From positions 186,001-250,000 of the forward strand of contig NZ_SISK01000001.1 in NCBI RefSeq assembly GCF_004310345.1: DNA of 64,000 nt. The letters run 5' to 3'. This document shows positions 28,641 through 57,817 of the stretch, in pieces (position 1 is the stretch's first letter; every line of letters starts with the position of its first letter). Below the pieces are notes generated by a model. It did no database searches and was not told the DNA's origin. It was given only the letters and a program-made list of their open reading frames with translations. A program made the translations under genes and the position numbers. Source of the DNA: Paracoccus subflavus (GTDB lineage: Bacteria; Pseudomonadota; Alphaproteobacteria; Rhodobacterales; Rhodobacteraceae).

Positions 28641-30041
28641 ATGACCGACACCCGCCCCGACCTGTCCTGCGATGTGGCCATCATCGGCGCGGGCACTGCC
28701 GGCCTTGCCGCCGAACGGGCCGCCCGGAAGGCCGGGGCACGGACCCTGCTGATCGACGACGGGTTCAAGGGAACCCTGTGCGCGACGACCGGCTGCATGC
28801 CGTCCAAGCTGCTGATCGCCGCCGCCCAGGCAGCCGCCGACATCGCCCGCGCAGGCGTGATGGGGATCGAAGCCGGGCCTGCGCGGATCGACGGCAGGCG
28901 CGTCATGGCGCGGGTCAGGGCAGAGCGCGACCGATTTGTCGCAGCGACCAAGGAAAGCTACACGGCCCTGCCCGGCGAGACCTGCATCGACGCCCGCGCG
29001 CGGTTCCTTGAACGAACCCGTCTGGAACTGGACGATGGCCGAACCGTCGGGGCACGATCCGTCGTGATCGCCACCGGCTCGATCCCGGTTGTTCCAAAGG
29101 CGTTCCGGGATCTCGGCCCCCGGGTGCTGACAAGCGATACCATTTTCGCCTTGGACGATCTGCCGGACCATCTTGCGGTCATCGGGTCAGGCCCGCTTGG
29201 CGCGGAACTGGCGCAGGCCATGGCGCGGCTGGGCGTCAGGGTGGCGCTGTTCGACAAGGGCGACCGGCTGGTCGGCATCCGCTGCGACAAGGTTCACGAC
29301 GCCTTCGGGCCGCTGTTCGCGGGCGACGTGACCCTGCATCTGGGATGTTCGCCCGAACCCTCGCCGCTACCTGACGGCATCCGCCTGACCTGGGACGGCG
29401 GGCAGGAGGATTTCAGCCATGTGCTGGTCGCCACCGGGCGCAGGCCCGCGCTGGACGACCTGAACCTTAGCGAAACCGGGCTGGATCTGAATGACAAGGG
29501 CGTTCCGCGCTTTGACCGGTCCACCATGCAATGCGGCGATTCCTGCATTTTCATTGCCGGTGATGCCGATGCTGACGCCCCCGTTCTGCACGAGGCATCG
29601 CTGGACGGCGCGACCGCAGGAACCAATGCCGCGACCTGGCCGGACCTGTCGCCCATCGACCGGCCCCCGATGTTCGCCATCGCCTTTACCGATCCGCCCG
29701 TGGCGACGGTGGGCGCATCCCCCCAGGACTGTGCGATCAATGCCTTTCGGGACTATTCGCGACAAGGGCGTGCCCAGGTCGAGGCGCGGGCCGGGGGCAT
29801 GGCGCGACTGGGCGCCGATGCCCGCGGACGCCTGATCGGCGCCGACCTGGCCGTTCCGGGCGCCGATCACCTGGGGCATCTGCTGGTTCTGGCCATCATG
29901 AACGGCGCCAGCGCGGCCGACCTGCTGAACATGCCTTTCTATCACCCCACGCTCGAGGAAGGGCTGAAACCCGCCTTGCGCGAGATTTGCAGGCAGGCAA
30001 GTCTGGCTATCCGGAACGACGGTAATCCGCCGGGGGCATGA
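28641..30041 (+). CDS. Dihydrolipoamide dehydrogenase-like flavoprotein (pyridine nucleotide-disulfide oxidoreductase)
   Basis: The 466-residue protein has the FAD motif IIGAGTAGLAAE (14-25), a redox pair C47-x4-C52 in TLCATTGCMPSK, a second Rossmann motif (VIGSGPLGAELA), the FAD-binding IAGDADAD and a C-terminal HPT-x-x-E dyad (FYHPTLEEGLKPAL). These are features of the Lpd/mercuric reductase group. I chose ATG 28641 because GGAG at 28630-28633 is 7 bases upstream; ATG 28635 is too close. No lipoyl-carrier enzymes are next to it, so its partner is unknown. Next gene overlaps its stop by 4 bases. Confidence 0.82.
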   Translation: MTDTRPDLSCDVAIIGAGTAGLAAERAARKAGARTLLIDDGFKGTLCATTGCMPSKLLIAAAQAAADIARAGVMGIEAGPARIDGRRVMARVRAERDRFVAATKESYTALPGETCIDARARFLERTRLELDDGRTVGARSVVIATGSIPVVPKAFRDLGPRVLTSDTIFALDDLPDHLAVIGSGPLGAELAQAMARLGVRVALFDKGDRLVGIRCDKVHDAFGPLFAGDVTLHLGCSPEPSPLPDGIRLTWDGGQEDFSHVLVATGRRPALDDLNLSETGLDLNDKGVPRFDRSTMQCGDSCIFIAGDADADAPVLHEASLDGATAGTNAATWPDLSPIDRPPMFAIAFTDPPVATVGASPQDCAINAFRDYSRQGRAQVEARAGGMARLGADARGRLIGADLAVPGADHLGHLLVLAIMNGASAADLLNMPFYHPTLEEGLKPALREICRQASLAIRNDGNPPGA

Positions 30042-30841
30042 TGACCGAACAGATGATCGACCTGGGCCACGGATTCTGGAACATTCGCGGCAACCTGCGC
30101 ATGGCAGGCGTCCTGAATGTCGGCACGCATTGTTCGCTGGTCCGGCTGGCAAACGGAGCCTTCGTGTTCCTCGATTCCTATGCCTTCGACGACCCCATCG
30201 CGCGGCAAGTCATGGCGCTGACAGACAATGGGCGGGCGGTCCAGGCAATTCTGAACCTGCACCCGTTCCACACCCTGTCCTGCCGATGGATGCACGACCG
30301 GTTTCCCGATGCGCTGCTGTTCGGGTCAGAACGCCACCGCCGCAAATGGCCCGACCTGCCGTGGCAGCCCGATCACGTCGAATCGGCTGCCGTGGCCCTG
30401 CGCTTTCCCGACCTGTCCTTCGCCTTGCCTGACGGCATCGACTATATCTGCCGGAACGAGCGGGTTCACGCGGGATCGCTGCTGGCCTATCACCCGGCCA
30501 GCGGCAGCCTGCATGTGGACGATACCCTGAATGTGCTGCCGATCCCCGGTTTTTTGCGCCGTCTGCTGCGCATGCCCCGGCTGACCTTTCATCCCATGCT
30601 GGGGCAGGCGTTGCAGGATCGTCCGGGTGCCGCGCGTGATTTCCGGGACTGGGCGCGCAGGACCGCACGCACCTGGCATGCTGTCCGCACCGTCTGCGCC
30701 GCGCATTCCGATATCCTGGACATCCCGCCGGGCAGCTTTCCCGGTTTGATGGAGGCAGCCCTGTCCCGTGCCGAACCGGCGCTGAGACGCGCCGAGATCC
30801 GGCAGGCACGAAAGTCAGCCCAGCCGCGCGATCAGCGATGA
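30038..30841 (+). CDS. Metallo-hydrolase-like protein of unknown function (DUF4336-like)
   Basis: The 267-residue protein begins DLGHGFWNIRGNLRMAGVLNVGTHCSLVRL and includes FLDSYAFDD, ILNLHPFHTLSC, GSERHRRKWP and LHVDDTLNVLPI. The order resembles metallo-beta-lactamase-fold proteins, in which LHPFHTLS would stand for the HxHxDH motif and HVDDTL for the later Asp; the canonical HxHxDH is not intact. ATG 30038 overlaps the upstream flavoprotein stop (ATGA). Its 3' end overlaps the converging dehydrogenase gene by 27 bases. Function uncertain. Confidence 0.6.
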   Translation: MMTEQMIDLGHGFWNIRGNLRMAGVLNVGTHCSLVRLANGAFVFLDSYAFDDPIARQVMALTDNGRAVQAILNLHPFHTLSCRWMHDRFPDALLFGSERHRRKWPDLPWQPDHVESAAVALRFPDLSFALPDGIDYICRNERVHAGSLLAYHPASGSLHVDDTLNVLPIPGFLRRLLRMPRLTFHPMLGQALQDRPGAARDFRDWARRTARTWHAVRTVCAAHSDILDIPPGSFPGLMEAALSRAEPALRRAEIRQARKSAQPRDQR

Positions 30842-31678
30842 CGTATCCCAGCGCCCGCCGCCCATCCGCTGCACGTCCTTGTAGAATTGGTCCACAAGAG
30901 CCGTGACCGGCAAGGATGCCCCCACCTCGTCTGCGGCCGCCAGACAGATGGCCAGATCCTTGCGCATCCAGTCCACCGCGAAACCATGGTCGAAATGGCC
31001 CTGCTTCATGGTCTTGTGGCGGTTGACCATCTGCCAGCTTGCCGCGGCGCCCTGACTGATGACCTCGACCACCTCCTCGATATCCAGGCCCGACTTGCGC
31101 GCAAAGGCCAGCGATTCGGAAAGACCCTGCACCAGGCCGGCAATGGCGATCTGGTTGCACATCTTGGTGATCTGGCCGGCCCCCGTATCGCCCATGCGGC
31201 GGCAGATCCGGGCATAGGCGGCGATGATGGGTGCGGCGCGATCGTAATCCCCGATGGGCCCGCCACACATCACGGACAACTGTCCGTTCTGGGCGCCCAC
31301 CTGCCCGCCCGACACCGGCGCGTCCACATAGCCCAATCCGGCGGACCGTGCCGACTCGGCCAGTTCACGCGTCACGGCGGCCGACACGGTGGTATGATCG
31401 ACCAAAATCGCACCCGGTTTCATTCCTGCAAAGGCGCCGTCGGCACCCAGGCAGACCTGGCGAAGATCGTCGTCATTGCCCACGCAGACCATCACGAAAT
31501 CCGCATCCTCGGCTGCCTTGCGCGGGGTATCGGCCCAGGAACCCCCATGCCTTTCAGACCAGGCCACGGCCTTTTCCACTGTGCGGTTGAACACGGTCAC
31601 CTTGTGACCGGCCGCGGCCAGATGGCCCGCCATCGGGGCACCCATGACGCCCATTCCCAGAAATGCCACCTTGGCCAT
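30815..31678 (-). CDS. NAD-binding 3-hydroxyisobutyrate dehydrogenase-family protein
   Basis: The 287-residue enzyme is a beta-hydroxyacid dehydrogenase. It has the N-terminal Rossmann motif FLGMGVMGAPMAGHL (5-19), the substrate motif DAPVSGGQVGA and the catalytic lysine helix in GAGQITKMCNQIA. The C-terminal KDLAICLAAADEVGASLPVTA is also typical. Family members reduce 2-hydroxy-3-oxopropionate or oxidise 3-hydroxyisobutyrate; the two cannot be separated here. The ATG at 31678 follows a weak GGGGTGACT ribosome binding site. Confidence 0.87.
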   Translation of the reverse strand: MAKVAFLGMGVMGAPMAGHLAAAGHKVTVFNRTVEKAVAWSERHGGSWADTPRKAAEDADFVMVCVGNDDDLRQVCLGADGAFAGMKPGAILVDHTTVSAAVTRELAESARSAGLGYVDAPVSGGQVGAQNGQLSVMCGGPIGDYDRAAPIIAAYARICRRMGDTGAGQITKMCNQIAIAGLVQGLSESLAFARKSGLDIEEVVEVISQGAAASWQMVNRHKTMKQGHFDHGFAVDWMRKDLAICLAAADEVGASLPVTALVDQFYKDVQRMGGGRWDTSSLIARLG

Positions 31679-31842
31679 AGTCACCCCCCTGCACTGTTCC
31701 CGTCCCGCATTGTGCGGCCTGCGTTGAACTGCCGGCGCGCCTGAATTATGCAGCACCCCAGCATCCCGGCGCACCATGGTCAAGCGCCCGTTCATCCCAG
31801 AAGCCCAAGGCCAGCGGACTTGTTCATGGAAAATCGCCCGAC

Positions 31843-34257
31843 ATGCTGATCCTGTTCCGCTGGCTGCTGCGGCTGACCATCGGGCTGATCCTGATGCTGG
31901 TGGCGGCCCTGATCCTGGCCTGGTATTTCGCGGTCCGGTCGCTGCCCGATTACAACGCCACACTGCGCGTGCCGGGCATCTCGGCGCCGGTGGAAATCGT
32001 CCGCAGCACCGAAAATGTCCCCCATGTGTTTGGCCAGACGGACGAAGACGTGTTTTTTGCCCTGGGCCTGGTCCACGCACAGGACCGGCTGTTCCAGATG
32101 ACGCTGCTGCGCCGTGCGGCGCAAGGCCGCCTGTCCGAGGTGTATGGCGCAGGTGCCCTGGCCGCCGACGATCTGGCCCGGCGGCTGGAACTGTACAGGA
32201 CCGCCGCCGCATCGGTCGAGGCACAGGACCAGGCGACCCAGGCGGCGCTGACCGCCTATGCCCGGGGGGTCAACGAATGGATCGGCCAGGTCAACGCCAG
32301 GGCCATGGGCCGCGGGGCGCCGGAATTCTTTGTCCTGCCCCAGGATATCGCTTATTGGCAGCCCGCCGATTCGCTGGCCATTCTCAAGCTGCTCGCGGCG
32401 TCCACCAGCAATGCGGTGGCGGACGAGGTGCTGCGCGCCCGCCTGTCGCTGACATGGCCCGAACGGGGGACCGACCTGCTGGCGGAAACGGCCCCCGCCG
32501 CTGCCCTGCCCCGCTATGCCGACCTGTTTCCCGGCGCGCGGTTTGCCCCTGTGGAAGCCCGCCTGGACCCAACGCCGGACCGCGACGTCACCCAGATGCT
32601 GCGCCCGAATGGCGGACTTGGCGGCAATGTCTTCGCTGCCGAGGCCGGCCGCACGGCGGCGGGCGGGGCCTTGCTTGCCAGCGACCCGCAGGCGCCGCTT
32701 GTGGCGCCCTCGCTTTACTATCTCGCCCGGCTGGAACTGACATCAGGCGGGGTGATCGGTGCCACCATTCCGGGGATGCCGGTGATCTTTTCGGGCCGCA
32801 ATCCGCAGTTGGCATGGGGGATCGCCCCGGCGCCGATGGATGATGCCGACATCGCCATCGAGGAGATCGAGCCGGGCCGGGTAGACCGGTATCGCGGCCC
32901 CGATGGCTGGACGGATTTCGCCACCCGGCGCGAAACCATCCGCATCCTGGACGAACCCGCCCGCACCGTGACCCTGCGCGGCAGCCGCAACGGTCCCATC
33001 GTGCCCTTGCTGGACCCAGGACTGGCCGACGCCACGCCCAGGGGACATGTGCCGGCGCTTCGCTGGACGGGCCTGTCCACCAGCGATACGACAATGTCGG
33101 CCCTGATCGGCATGATGCGGGCGGCCGATACGGGCAGCGCGGCGACCGCCCTTGGCCGCGTCGTTGCCCCGCCGATGGCGGTTGCCTTGGCCGATGAGGA
33201 CGGCATCCGGCAGATCACCGTGGGCGCGGCCCCTCAACGGGCATCCGATCATCCGACGGGCGGGGCCATGCCCGTTCCCGGCTGGCTGCCCCAAGGCGAA
33301 TGGAGCGGCCAGTTGTCGGCGGTCATCGACAATCCCACCCCCGACGGAATCGCGTTCGCCACCGAAGAGCGAAGCCCCCTGGGGTTGCGCCGCAGCCGCC
33401 TGGGCTGGCTGCTGGGCGACCGCGAGGTTCATTCCCGGGACAGCTTTGTCGCCGCGCAACTGGATATCGTCAGCCCTGCCGCGCGCAGTCTTTTGCCGCT
33501 TGTCGGGGCCGACCTGTGGTTCACGGGCGAACCCGCCGCCTCTGGCACGCCCGAACGCCAGCGCCAGGACGTGCTGAACCTGCTGGCCGAATGGGACGGC
33601 GCCATGAGCGAGCATCTGCCCGAGCCGCTGATCCATTCCGCCTGGATGGCGGCGCTTCAGGATCGGCTGATCCGCGACGAACTCGGCCCCTTGGCCGATG
33701 ACATCCGCACCCTCCAGCCCGGCTTTGTCGATGCGGTCTTTCGCAACCGGAACAGCGCGGGGGTCTGGTGCGACATCGTGCAAAGCGCCCCGGTCGAGGA
33801 TTGCACCACCATCGCCCGGCAGGCGCTGGACCGGGCCATCCTGGACCTGACGCAGCGATTTGGCGCCGATGTCGCCAGTTGGCGGTGGGGCGACGCCCAT
33901 CAGGCCTATCAGGTCCATCCGGGGCTGGGCCGGATGGCGGTGCTTGGCTGGATCGTGAACCTGTCGCAGCCCTTGTCTGGGGGGGCTTTCTCGGTTTCCC
34001 ACACGGGGATGATGGCGGCGGGGGCCGAACCCTTCCAGGCGCGGACCGGCCCCGGCTATCGCGGCGTCTATGATCTGGCCGATCCAGACAGTTCGGTCTT
34101 TATCCTGTCAACCGGACAGTCGGGACATCCGCTGTCGCGTCATTACGACGATCTGGCCGAATTGTGGCGCCGGGGCGAGTACATCGGCATGTCGCTGGAC
34201 CCGCAGCTTGCGCGCGCAGCGGCAACCGGGGTGACGGTTCTGCAACCCGTGGAATAA
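31843..34257 (+). CDS. Penicillin acylase family protein with Ser-to-Gly at the nucleophile position
   Basis: The 804-residue protein starts with a membrane or signal segment (FRWLLRLTIGLILMLVAALIL) and matches the penicillin acylase/Ntn-hydrolase family throughout: VFFALGLVHAQDRLFQM, RGVNEWI, GALLASDPQAPL and HTGMMAAGAEPFQ. In active members a serine at the start of the beta chain (usual SNxW/F) is nucleophile and self-cleavage site. Here the segment reads NGGLGGNVFAAEAGR, with Gly261 (GGC at 32623-32625) where Ser is expected. Self-processing and normal amidase activity are therefore doubtful. No frameshift or stop is present and length is normal. Confidence 0.85.
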   Translation: MLILFRWLLRLTIGLILMLVAALILAWYFAVRSLPDYNATLRVPGISAPVEIVRSTENVPHVFGQTDEDVFFALGLVHAQDRLFQMTLLRRAAQGRLSEVYGAGALAADDLARRLELYRTAAASVEAQDQATQAALTAYARGVNEWIGQVNARAMGRGAPEFFVLPQDIAYWQPADSLAILKLLAASTSNAVADEVLRARLSLTWPERGTDLLAETAPAAALPRYADLFPGARFAPVEARLDPTPDRDVTQMLRPNGGLGGNVFAAEAGRTAAGGALLASDPQAPLVAPSLYYLARLELTSGGVIGATIPGMPVIFSGRNPQLAWGIAPAPMDDADIAIEEIEPGRVDRYRGPDGWTDFATRRETIRILDEPARTVTLRGSRNGPIVPLLDPGLADATPRGHVPALRWTGLSTSDTTMSALIGMMRAADTGSAATALGRVVAPPMAVALADEDGIRQITVGAAPQRASDHPTGGAMPVPGWLPQGEWSGQLSAVIDNPTPDGIAFATEERSPLGLRRSRLGWLLGDREVHSRDSFVAAQLDIVSPAARSLLPLVGADLWFTGEPAASGTPERQRQDVLNLLAEWDGAMSEHLPEPLIHSAWMAALQDRLIRDELGPLADDIRTLQPGFVDAVFRNRNSAGVWCDIVQSAPVEDCTTIARQALDRAILDLTQRFGADVASWRWGDAHQAYQVHPGLGRMAVLGWIVNLSQPLSGGAFSVSHTGMMAAGAEPFQARTGPGYRGVYDLADPDSSVFILSTGQSGHPLSRHYDDLAELWRRGEYIGMSLDPQLARAAATGVTVLQPVE

Positions 34258-56154: not shown

Positions 56155-56673
56155 TTATTTCATAAAAGGAGATGAAGACAGAAGCTGATCATTGGTCAGA
56201 TTTGTCTGGCCAAGATTTTCAAGTCTGATGGCTCGCATGGCTTTCAAGATTGCATTATTTACGCTCTCCTGGCGCTGTCCGGAAAAGTGGTCGCTCAGCT
56301 CTCCATATGCGGCAACAACTTGGTCGCTACCGACTACCGACAACTTCATTTTTGCTTGCACAAACGCCGCTTGAGCTTCTTTCTCGTCAAAATAACCCAT
56401 CTTCGCAGCGGCCAACTTCCCTATCGCGTCCATAGCCTCAACGTTTACAGCAAAGTGCTGTGCTATCCTTGACTCCTCGCGATCAACATTCTTCTGAGCA
56501 ACATAGGCTATAATGCCGAGAGAAGGTACGATGATAGCCGCCAGAATGGCCGCTAATGCTTCTGAAACACCGTTCAGAGCGGGTGAAGCAATAAATGAAA
56601 AGGCAATGCCAAATGCAAATGAAATAAGAGTAACTGCGCCTAATATTGCTTGGTTGCCATAGGTCAACTTCAC
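56155..56673 (-). CDS. AT-richer membrane protein of unknown function, overlapping pheS
   Basis: The 172-residue protein has two hydrophobic segments ([19 protein letters not shown] and [21 protein letters not shown], about residues 9-28 and 38-60). A soluble, mostly helical part follows ([23 protein letters not shown], then [19 protein letters not shown] within 121-145). It starts at GTG 56673, which overlaps the pheS stop (GTGA). Codon and base use are clearly AT-richer (roughly 45% GC by eye) than flanking genes, and REP-like repeats lie just downstream, so it may be acquired. I recognise no family. Confidence 0.6.
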
Positions 56674-57752
56674 CTACTCAACCCCCCGCTCACGCTCGGC
56701 ACATCCCCCGCCGCGAACCCATAGTGCCGCAGCCACCGCAGGTCGCTCTCGAAGAACGCCCGTAAATCCGGGATCCCGTATTTCAGCATCGCGATCCGGT
56801 CGATGCCCATGCCGAAGGCAAAGCCCTGCCACTGGTCGGGATCGATCCCGCCCGCGCGCAGGACGTTCGGATGCACCATCCCCGACCCCAGGATCTCCAG
56901 CCACGACTCACCCTCGCCGATCTTCAACTGGCCGCCGGACCAGTCGCAGCGGATATCGACCTCGGCCGACGGTTCGGTAAAGGGGAAATGGCTGGCGCGG
57001 AACCGCAGTTCGACCTGATCCACCTCGAAGAAGGCGCGGCAGAATTCCTCGAGCGTCCATTTCAGTTGCGCCATGGAAATGTCGCGGTCGATGGCCAGGC
57101 CCTCGACCTGGTGGAACATCGGCGTGTGGGTCTGGTCCATGTCCATGCGATAGACGCGGCCGGGGCAGATCACCCGGATCGGCGCGCCCTGGTCCTGCAT
57201 CGCGCGGATCTGGACCGGGCTGGTATGGGTGCGCAGCACATGCGGCGGGCGGGTGTCGCCCGGCGCGCGGTGCATGAAAAAGGTGTCGTGTTCCTGGCGC
57301 GCGGGGTGTTCGGGCGCGATGTTCAACGCATCGAAGTTGTACCAGTCCGATTCCACCTGCGGCCCTTCGGCGACCGCGAATCCCATATCGGCAAAGATCG
57401 CGGTCACTTCATCCGTCACCTGGCTGATCGGATGGATGGTGCCCTGCGGGCGCGGACGGCCGGGCAGCGTCACGTCCAGCCATTCGCCGGCCAGCCGGGA
57501 TTCCAGCGCGGCATCCTCAAGCGACAGCTTGCGGGCGCGCAGGGCGGCGTCCAGTTCGTCGCGCAGCTCGTTCAGGGCGCGGCCGGTGGTCTGGCGTTCC
57601 TCGGGAGACATGCGGCCCAGTTCGCGCATCTTCAGGCTGATCTCACCCTTCTTGCCAAGGGCGGCAAGGCGCACCTCCTCGATGGCCTGCGGGTCGGCGG
57701 CGGCGTTGATGCGGTCAAGCCATTGCTGGCGCAGGGGGTTCAGGTCGTCCAT
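56670..57752 (-). CDS. pheS: Phenylalanine-tRNA ligase alpha subunit (PheS)
   Basis: The 360-residue catalytic subunit carries class II motifs: [37 protein letters not shown] (motif 2 region within ~160-185), [21 protein letters not shown] and motif 3 in [18 protein letters not shown] 57752 is chosen because AAGG lies 7 bases upstream; an ATG at 57758 also fits. It ends SVSGGLSR as in relatives. pheT is 30.8 kb away. Confidence 0.95.
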
Positions 57753-57817
57753 CGTCATGCCTTCGGCCGTGCTTGTTGGGCCTTGCGTTAGCATTTGTGA
57801 CGGGCCGGGAAAAGCCT

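Follow-up and report, generated by a model that had tools for sequence, protein, structure and literature searches.

Penicillin G acylase (PGA) is a soluble, self-cleaved and active enzyme. An account of its active-site network lists Ser1, Ala69, Asn241, Arg263 and Gln23 (PMC13414894). The oxyanion hole of MacQ has been described as a backbone NH together with an Asn side chain (PMC5566955), and the same pairing has been reported for a lysosomal Ntn hydrolase (PMC2739207). The MacQ S210A mutant is uncleaved, yet it was reported to be active on acyl-homoserine lactones (AHLs) (PMC5566955). In the genus Paracoccus, scaffold 1 of Paracoccus sp. JM45 was reported to encode a penicillin amidase with AHL-degradation potential (PMC6328668), and the KDSPL-02 paper names 156 Paracoccus 'penicillin acylases' in NCBI among potential penicillin G breakdown enzymes (PMC7036172).

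Here we analyze a protein of this family from Paracoccus subflavus. Its gene lies in a stretch of 64,000 nucleotides from contig NZ_SISK01000001.1 (forward strand, positions 186,001 to 250,000), in the following called the window. Pseudoenzymes are already known as a kind; for the penicillin-acylase family, we found no description of one, or of such a loss in Paracoccus, in the freely licensed literature as judged by title. Papers on what the canonical gene does and whether it is essential, on PvdQ N269D and on Kluyvera precursor mutants gave no lead, nor did a review of S45 enzymes (PMC11241749).

Results

Gly261 occupies the nucleophile position of a penicillin-amidase family protein

The window protein has 804 residues, and its reading frame is free of internal stops (Table 1). 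The penicillin amidase profile PF01804 spans it almost end to end, with profile positions 1–671 of 675 covered at 548.6 bits (gathering cut-off 21.3 bits). On the PvdQ equivalog model NF051460 the protein scores 29 bits versus a cut-off of 950 and hence is not a PvdQ equivalog. Its closest named relatives are found in Paracoccus species at 80–82% identity. A search of the source genome (25 contigs, 99.98% complete) gave no second PF01804 match at E <= 0.001. A recent paralogue as the origin of the gene was rejected because of this sole match and the conserved neighbour described below. Residues 2–33 form a hydrophobic helix in the AlphaFold2 model, a putative uncleaved inner-membrane anchor, and F5, R6 and W7 at the start of this helix are invariant in all 61 rows of one family alignment.

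Table 1. Features of the locus, in window coordinates
Feature	Position	Strand	Basis
Neighbouring gene, divergent; beta-hydroxyacid dehydrogenase type, NAD-binding	30815..31678	-	PF03446 + PF14833
Probable pseudoenzyme of penicillin-amidase fold, 804 aa	31843..34257	+	PF01804 E 4.4e-164; AlphaFold2 pLDDT 87.0, pTM 0.88
N-terminal hydrophobic helix, residues 2-33; putative uncleaved inner-membrane anchor	31846..31941	+	Helix predicted by AlphaFold2
Former alpha/beta junction, without nucleophile	32611..32640	+	Sequence alignments
Gly261 (GGC) at PGA betaSer1 position	32623..32625	+	Ser in 0/115 genus members
Pro329 (CCG) at PGA betaAla69 position	32827..32829	+	Gapless block with 7rep
Glu508-Glu509 in place of oxyanion-hole Asn-Asn (PGA betaAsn241-Asn242)	33364..33369	+	Family alignment
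Shortened loop, 8 aa	33364..33387	+	Versus 21 aa in canonical rows

Codon 261 reads GGC and gives Gly in the local stretch N256-G-G-L-G-G261-N-V-F. In sequence, residue 261 aligns without gaps with the Ser that opens the solved beta chains, and in VIA-align superpositions the model residue 261 meets chain residue 1 of 4hsr, 1pnk, 1gm7 and others. Since sequence blocks without gaps and the structural superpositions concur here, an alignment slip at this residue was rejected. Where an active S45/Ntn-hydrolase starts its beta chain with Ser (or Thr or Cys), the window protein thus has Gly.

A first-pass annotation of this DNA had proposed that Gly261 replaces the nucleophile Ser, and both the codon and the alignments bear this out. 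The same holds for the genus as a whole. From the 123 genus genomes with a match, 8 with split or broken copies were set aside, which left 115 intact orthologues, one per species. In these the nucleophile column contains Ala 80 times and Gly 35 times, and Ser, Thr or Cys in none. The annotation had asked whether Gly might be fixed in a clade; what is fixed in the genus is Ala or Gly (115/115), with Ala the commoner of the two. A second set of 28 Paracoccus loci, many of them from species shared with the 115, shows Ala in 18 and Gly in 10. Ser is likewise absent from 8/8 fragments of broken or split genus copies that cover the site; seven of them stem from seven of the eight genomes concerned, and one is an additional partial copy in G097, whereas the G020 fragment covers the site too poorly.

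Outside the genus, 98/99 family rows have Ser. These 99 rows were sampled from 386 matching genomes of other genera and comprise the best 29, the next 40 and 30 selected among the weaker ones. Ser is also found in 52/52 loci of a second set; this set and the 28 Paracoccus loci overlap the main sets in species and are not independent of them. The one row without Ser, L265, is a long-branch row from a small genome in another genus (G502, about 2.3 Mb). It also carries Gly at the Asn241 position and seems to have undergone a separate loss.

Both oxyanion-hole positions and the neighbouring loop are changed

PGA numbering was transferred by aligning the window protein and the canonical orthologue L097 of Phaeovulum veldkampii to single-chain PGA (7rep). 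This alignment is gapless across the blocks for Ser1, Gln23 and Ala69 and, for L097, also across Asn241. PGA betaAsn241 corresponds to Asn511 of L097 and, with the family alignment as the last step, to Glu508 of the window protein, so that the oxyanion-hole Asn of an active S45/Ntn-hydrolase is here a Glu. None of the 115 genus members has Asn at this position, which is held by Gly (64), Glu (44), Asp (5) or Ala (2). Outside the genus it is Asn in 96/97 readable family rows and in 52/52 loci of the second set.

The backbone NH of PGA betaAla69 is the other oxyanion-hole donor. The window protein has Pro329 at this position, and Pro is found in 114/115 genus members; the remaining one, L205, carries Ser, and so does the broken genus copy L153. 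Outside the genus, Pro occurs here in 0/99 family rows and 0/52 loci of the second set. Because a proline nitrogen carries no hydrogen, Pro329 cannot serve as an oxyanion NH donor. Judged from the gapless sequence alignment, the backbone NH that an active S45/Ntn-hydrolase offers here would hence be missing. The first-pass annotation had considered the rest of the protein intact. For the active site this was wrong, as the Asn241-type Asn, the Ala69-type NH and the loop adjoining the Asn are changed as well.

This loop, counted from the Asn motif to the Arg263 position, measures 21 aa in 96/97 canonical rows and 13 aa in the remaining one, two truncated rows being omitted from the count. Across the genus it ranges from 7 to 134 aa, and 58 rows have a loop of 7 or 8 aa. 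Long loops of 57–134 aa are present in 12/115 members (L140-L148, L150-L152). Ala makes up 27% of these long loops, Pro 18% and Gly 13%, and the long-loop label needs three changes on the tree.

Other elements of the active site are retained. The Arg263 position is Arg in 113/115 genus members, although the alignment here follows a loop of altered length and structural equivalence is unsure. Asn2 is Asn in 90/115 members, and the Gln23 position is His or Gln in 107/115. These retained residues count against reading the protein as a pseudoenzyme.

The loss maps to the base of the genus and the gene is kept

The gene was matched in 123/125 genus genomes. The two genomes without a match are assemblies of 71% and 95% completeness, each in hundreds of contigs. 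In trees calculated with FastTree alone, a branch with support 100 separates the genus from all other rows (214 rows in total), and it does so again after removal of the active-site columns (211 rows). The Ser/non-Ser character needs two changes on the tree, at the genus base and at L265. The genus lost Ser a single time, at its base.

Conservation elsewhere was compared in 279 columns that are at least 95% conserved in 69 outgroup rows. The genus keeps 196 of them at 95% or more and has lost 20. Eight of the lost columns lie at the active site, namely L097 positions 259 and 260 at the junction and 509, 511, 512, 513, 519 and 527 in the oxyanion loop; the remaining 12 are scattered across the protein. 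The median pairwise dN/dS is 0.169 for 219 genus pairs versus 0.158 for 115 outside pairs. At dS < 0.9 the medians are 0.174 (211 genus pairs) and 0.168 (95 outside pairs). These are simple Nei-Gojobori estimates from overlapping pairs at 80–98.5% identity and dS 0.05–1.5, and they indicate similar constraint without a formal test.

At least 22 of the 123 genus genomes contain one or more additional PF01804 genes beside the orthologue. All eight accessory paralogues that were read (L312-L318, L320) keep the G-S-N-N-W motif, the Asn and a residue other than Pro at the Ala69 position. The residue loss is thus specific to the orthologue and not to the genus or the method. In the JM45 genome, the sole PF01804 match (E <= 0.001) lies on contig 1 and is the orthologue L077, which is without all three active-site elements.

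A divergent dehydrogenase gene is a conserved neighbour

The neighbouring dehydrogenase gene (Table 1) scores below every NCBIfam cut-off shown. It is adjacent and divergent in 123/130 genus loci and in 28/28 Paracoccus loci of the second set, and likewise in 27/29 and 49/52 loci from other genera. Of the seven genus loci that lack this arrangement, six are fragments missing the 5' end. In the remaining one, the broken copy L154, the piece that matches best is located farther away. From this conserved neighbour it follows that we are looking at the same locus throughout, in positional orthology, and not at a replacement.

The intergenic region of the pair occupies 31679-31842 of the window. 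The median spacing between the matches is 136 bases in the genus and 147 in the second Paracoccus set, and shorter in other genera, with medians of 88 and 85 bases. Beside the dehydrogenase gene, an ORF of 267 aa (30038-30841) matches nothing in Pfam or NCBIfam at E <= 0.001; the closest Paracoccus species have a counterpart at this position. Elsewhere in the window, a cytochrome P450 gene (57818-59170; PF00067, E 1.5e-69) adjoins a gene of phenylalanyl-tRNA synthetase alpha type (56670-57794).

The acylase fold is predicted to be kept

Foldseek placed D-succinylase, cephalosporin acylase precursors and spacer mutants as the best matches of the window model. In VIA-align it superposes on 7eby with Z 45.2 and rmsd 2.9 over 702 aligned residues. 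The model of the canonical control L097 (pLDDT 83.1, pTM 0.86) gave Z 43.6 and rmsd 2.7 with 7ea4 (719 aligned). Against 1pnk_B, we obtained Z 24.2 and rmsd 3.2 for the window model (488 aligned) and Z 27.4 and rmsd 3.1 for L097 (506 aligned). By comparison of each model with solved structures, the window protein is somewhat less close to true PGA than L097 is. The models predict that the Ntn-hydrolase acylase fold is kept.

Discussion

Our analyses point to a conserved pseudoenzyme of the penicillin-acylase family that is retained under selection in Paracoccus, probably with a role in ligand or partner binding. We put the probability of this reading at roughly 0.7. Ancestral loss of catalytic residues and retention of the gene are found together: the loss lies on one side of a single branch, the gene is present in 123/125 genomes and the median dN/dS is 0.17. 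The first-pass annotation had suggested a non-catalytic binding protein. This is also our best reading, although as an inference.

The gene probably is a vertically inherited orthologue of an acylase-fold protein that is present in nearly all searched genomes of the family. As the sequences show, the genus ancestor lost the residues that provide the nucleophile, the oxyanion-hole Asn side chain and the oxyanion-hole backbone NH, and the gene was then kept as a pseudoenzyme under purifying selection, a step supported by prevalence, synteny and dN/dS. With the nucleophile gone from the junction, self-cleavage by the known route would not be expected, as the annotation had already pointed out, and the uncleaved MacQ S210A mutant suggests the same. 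From the model, general knowledge of the family and mutants of its relatives, the precursor would hence not be cut at the alpha/beta junction and would remain one chain of about 85 kDa. On the same grounds, the N-terminal helix would anchor this chain in the inner membrane, and the acylase fold would lie in the periplasm. What used to be the substrate pocket would most likely bind an N-acylated compound or the acyl chain of one, or the domain might act as a platform for partner binding. The loop, presumably freed from catalysis, varies between 7 and 134 aa.

The change is of interest in that it maps to one branch, involves three distinct active-site elements and persists genus-wide. It also comes with controls, namely catalytic-looking orthologues in neighbouring genera and catalytic-looking paralogues inside the genus. 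The genus-wide Paracoccus copy should hence not be counted as AHL- or penicillin-degrading without an assay.

A possible, though doubtful, alternative is that the protein serves solely as a scaffold or assembly factor, with an empty pocket and a surface or the expanded loop holding a partner. The Ala-, Pro- and Gly-rich insertions of 12/115 members sit at the former catalytic loop and would suit such a function, as would the conserved divergent pairing with the dehydrogenase gene. However, a known partner is lacking, and most of the genus, the window protein included, is without a long loop. This alternative overlaps with the pseudoenzyme reading, so that the odds of the two are not additive.

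The conserved pseudoenzyme that we favour could be pictured more specifically, and here we can offer only a speculation that is somewhat less likely still. Throughout the genus, a near-universal acylase of the family may have become a periplasmic receptor or carrier that is anchored in the membrane and binds N-acyl ligands but no longer cuts them. Such a ligand could be a long-chain acyl-homoserine lactone or, as another example, a lipid of the N-acyl amino-acid type. In some species the freed loop might then have turned into a rapidly evolving segment, up to 134 aa long, that binds a partner.

It is unlikely, in our view, that the protein has residual or altered catalysis, i.e., that it hydrolyzes amides by means of another residue or water without cleaving itself. 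Activity of an uncleaved chain has a precedent in the report on MacQ S210A (PMC5566955), and the Arg263-type Arg is retained in 113/115 genus members. A nucleophile shifted to position −1 was considered as well: 53/115 members have Ser (47) or Thr (6) there. This candidate was rejected, since the window protein lacks a Ser at −1, the Ser/other character needs 14 changes on the tree and the oxyanion hole is changed. The first-pass annotation had also allowed for the use of another residue, but no Ser, Thr or Cys is conserved near the junction. Furthermore, both oxyanion-hole positions are altered in the Paracoccus protein, whereas MacQ keeps its oxyanion hole.

Decay of an unneeded enzyme that drifts toward loss seems quite improbable. 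Copies with frameshifts or in-frame stops do occur in the genus (L153, L154) as they do in other genera (L271 and L272, one stop each), and all four are either true pseudogenes or sequencing errors. Given the two broken genus copies and the two genomes without a match among the 125, a few strains may be able to do without the gene. Yet it is intact in 115 genomes, its dN/dS resembles that of the canonical orthologues, and the replaced sites are held to set residues (Ala/Gly in 115/115, Pro in 114/115) and do not drift. That codon 261 was misread or misassembled has a negligible chance, as Ser is absent from the 115 intact orthologues of 115 genomes, one per species.

How does the Paracoccus protein, in our reading a conserved pseudoenzyme, compare with known systems? 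Closest to hand is L097, a canonical Rhodobacteraceae orthologue with 56% identity to the window protein, the same F-R-W at the helix start, the divergent dehydrogenase neighbour and a similar predicted fold. In contrast to the window protein, it has the Ser, the Asn-Asn, a residue other than Pro at the Ala69 position and the 21-aa loop. Among solved structures, D-succinylase (7eby, 7ea4) is closest both by sequence and by fold; it differs in that Ser is present in a G-S-N-N-W motif.

The PGAs from E. coli, Kluyvera and others (1pnk, 7rep, 4pem) share the Ntn fold, with window residue 261 superposing on betaSer1, and their beta chains show 16–20% identity to the window model in structural alignments. 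According to its PDB title, 4pem is an S1G penicillin G acylase and as such a laboratory counterpart of the natural change from Ser to Gly. The uncleaved MacQ mutants (5c9i; S210A) offer the picture of an acylase fold in a single uncleaved chain, and 5c9i superposes on the window model with Z 33.3 and rmsd 3.9 (625 aligned). MacQ keeps its oxyanion hole, whereas the Paracoccus protein is naturally without all three elements. PvdQ N269 presumably is the oxyanion Asn of that enzyme. The inactive S1A/N269D PvdQ, complexed with a pyoverdine precursor (5ubk, PDB title), sets a precedent for a dead acylase that still binds. In PvdQ, however, the double loss was engineered, whereas the state seen in Paracoccus is natural and genus-wide.
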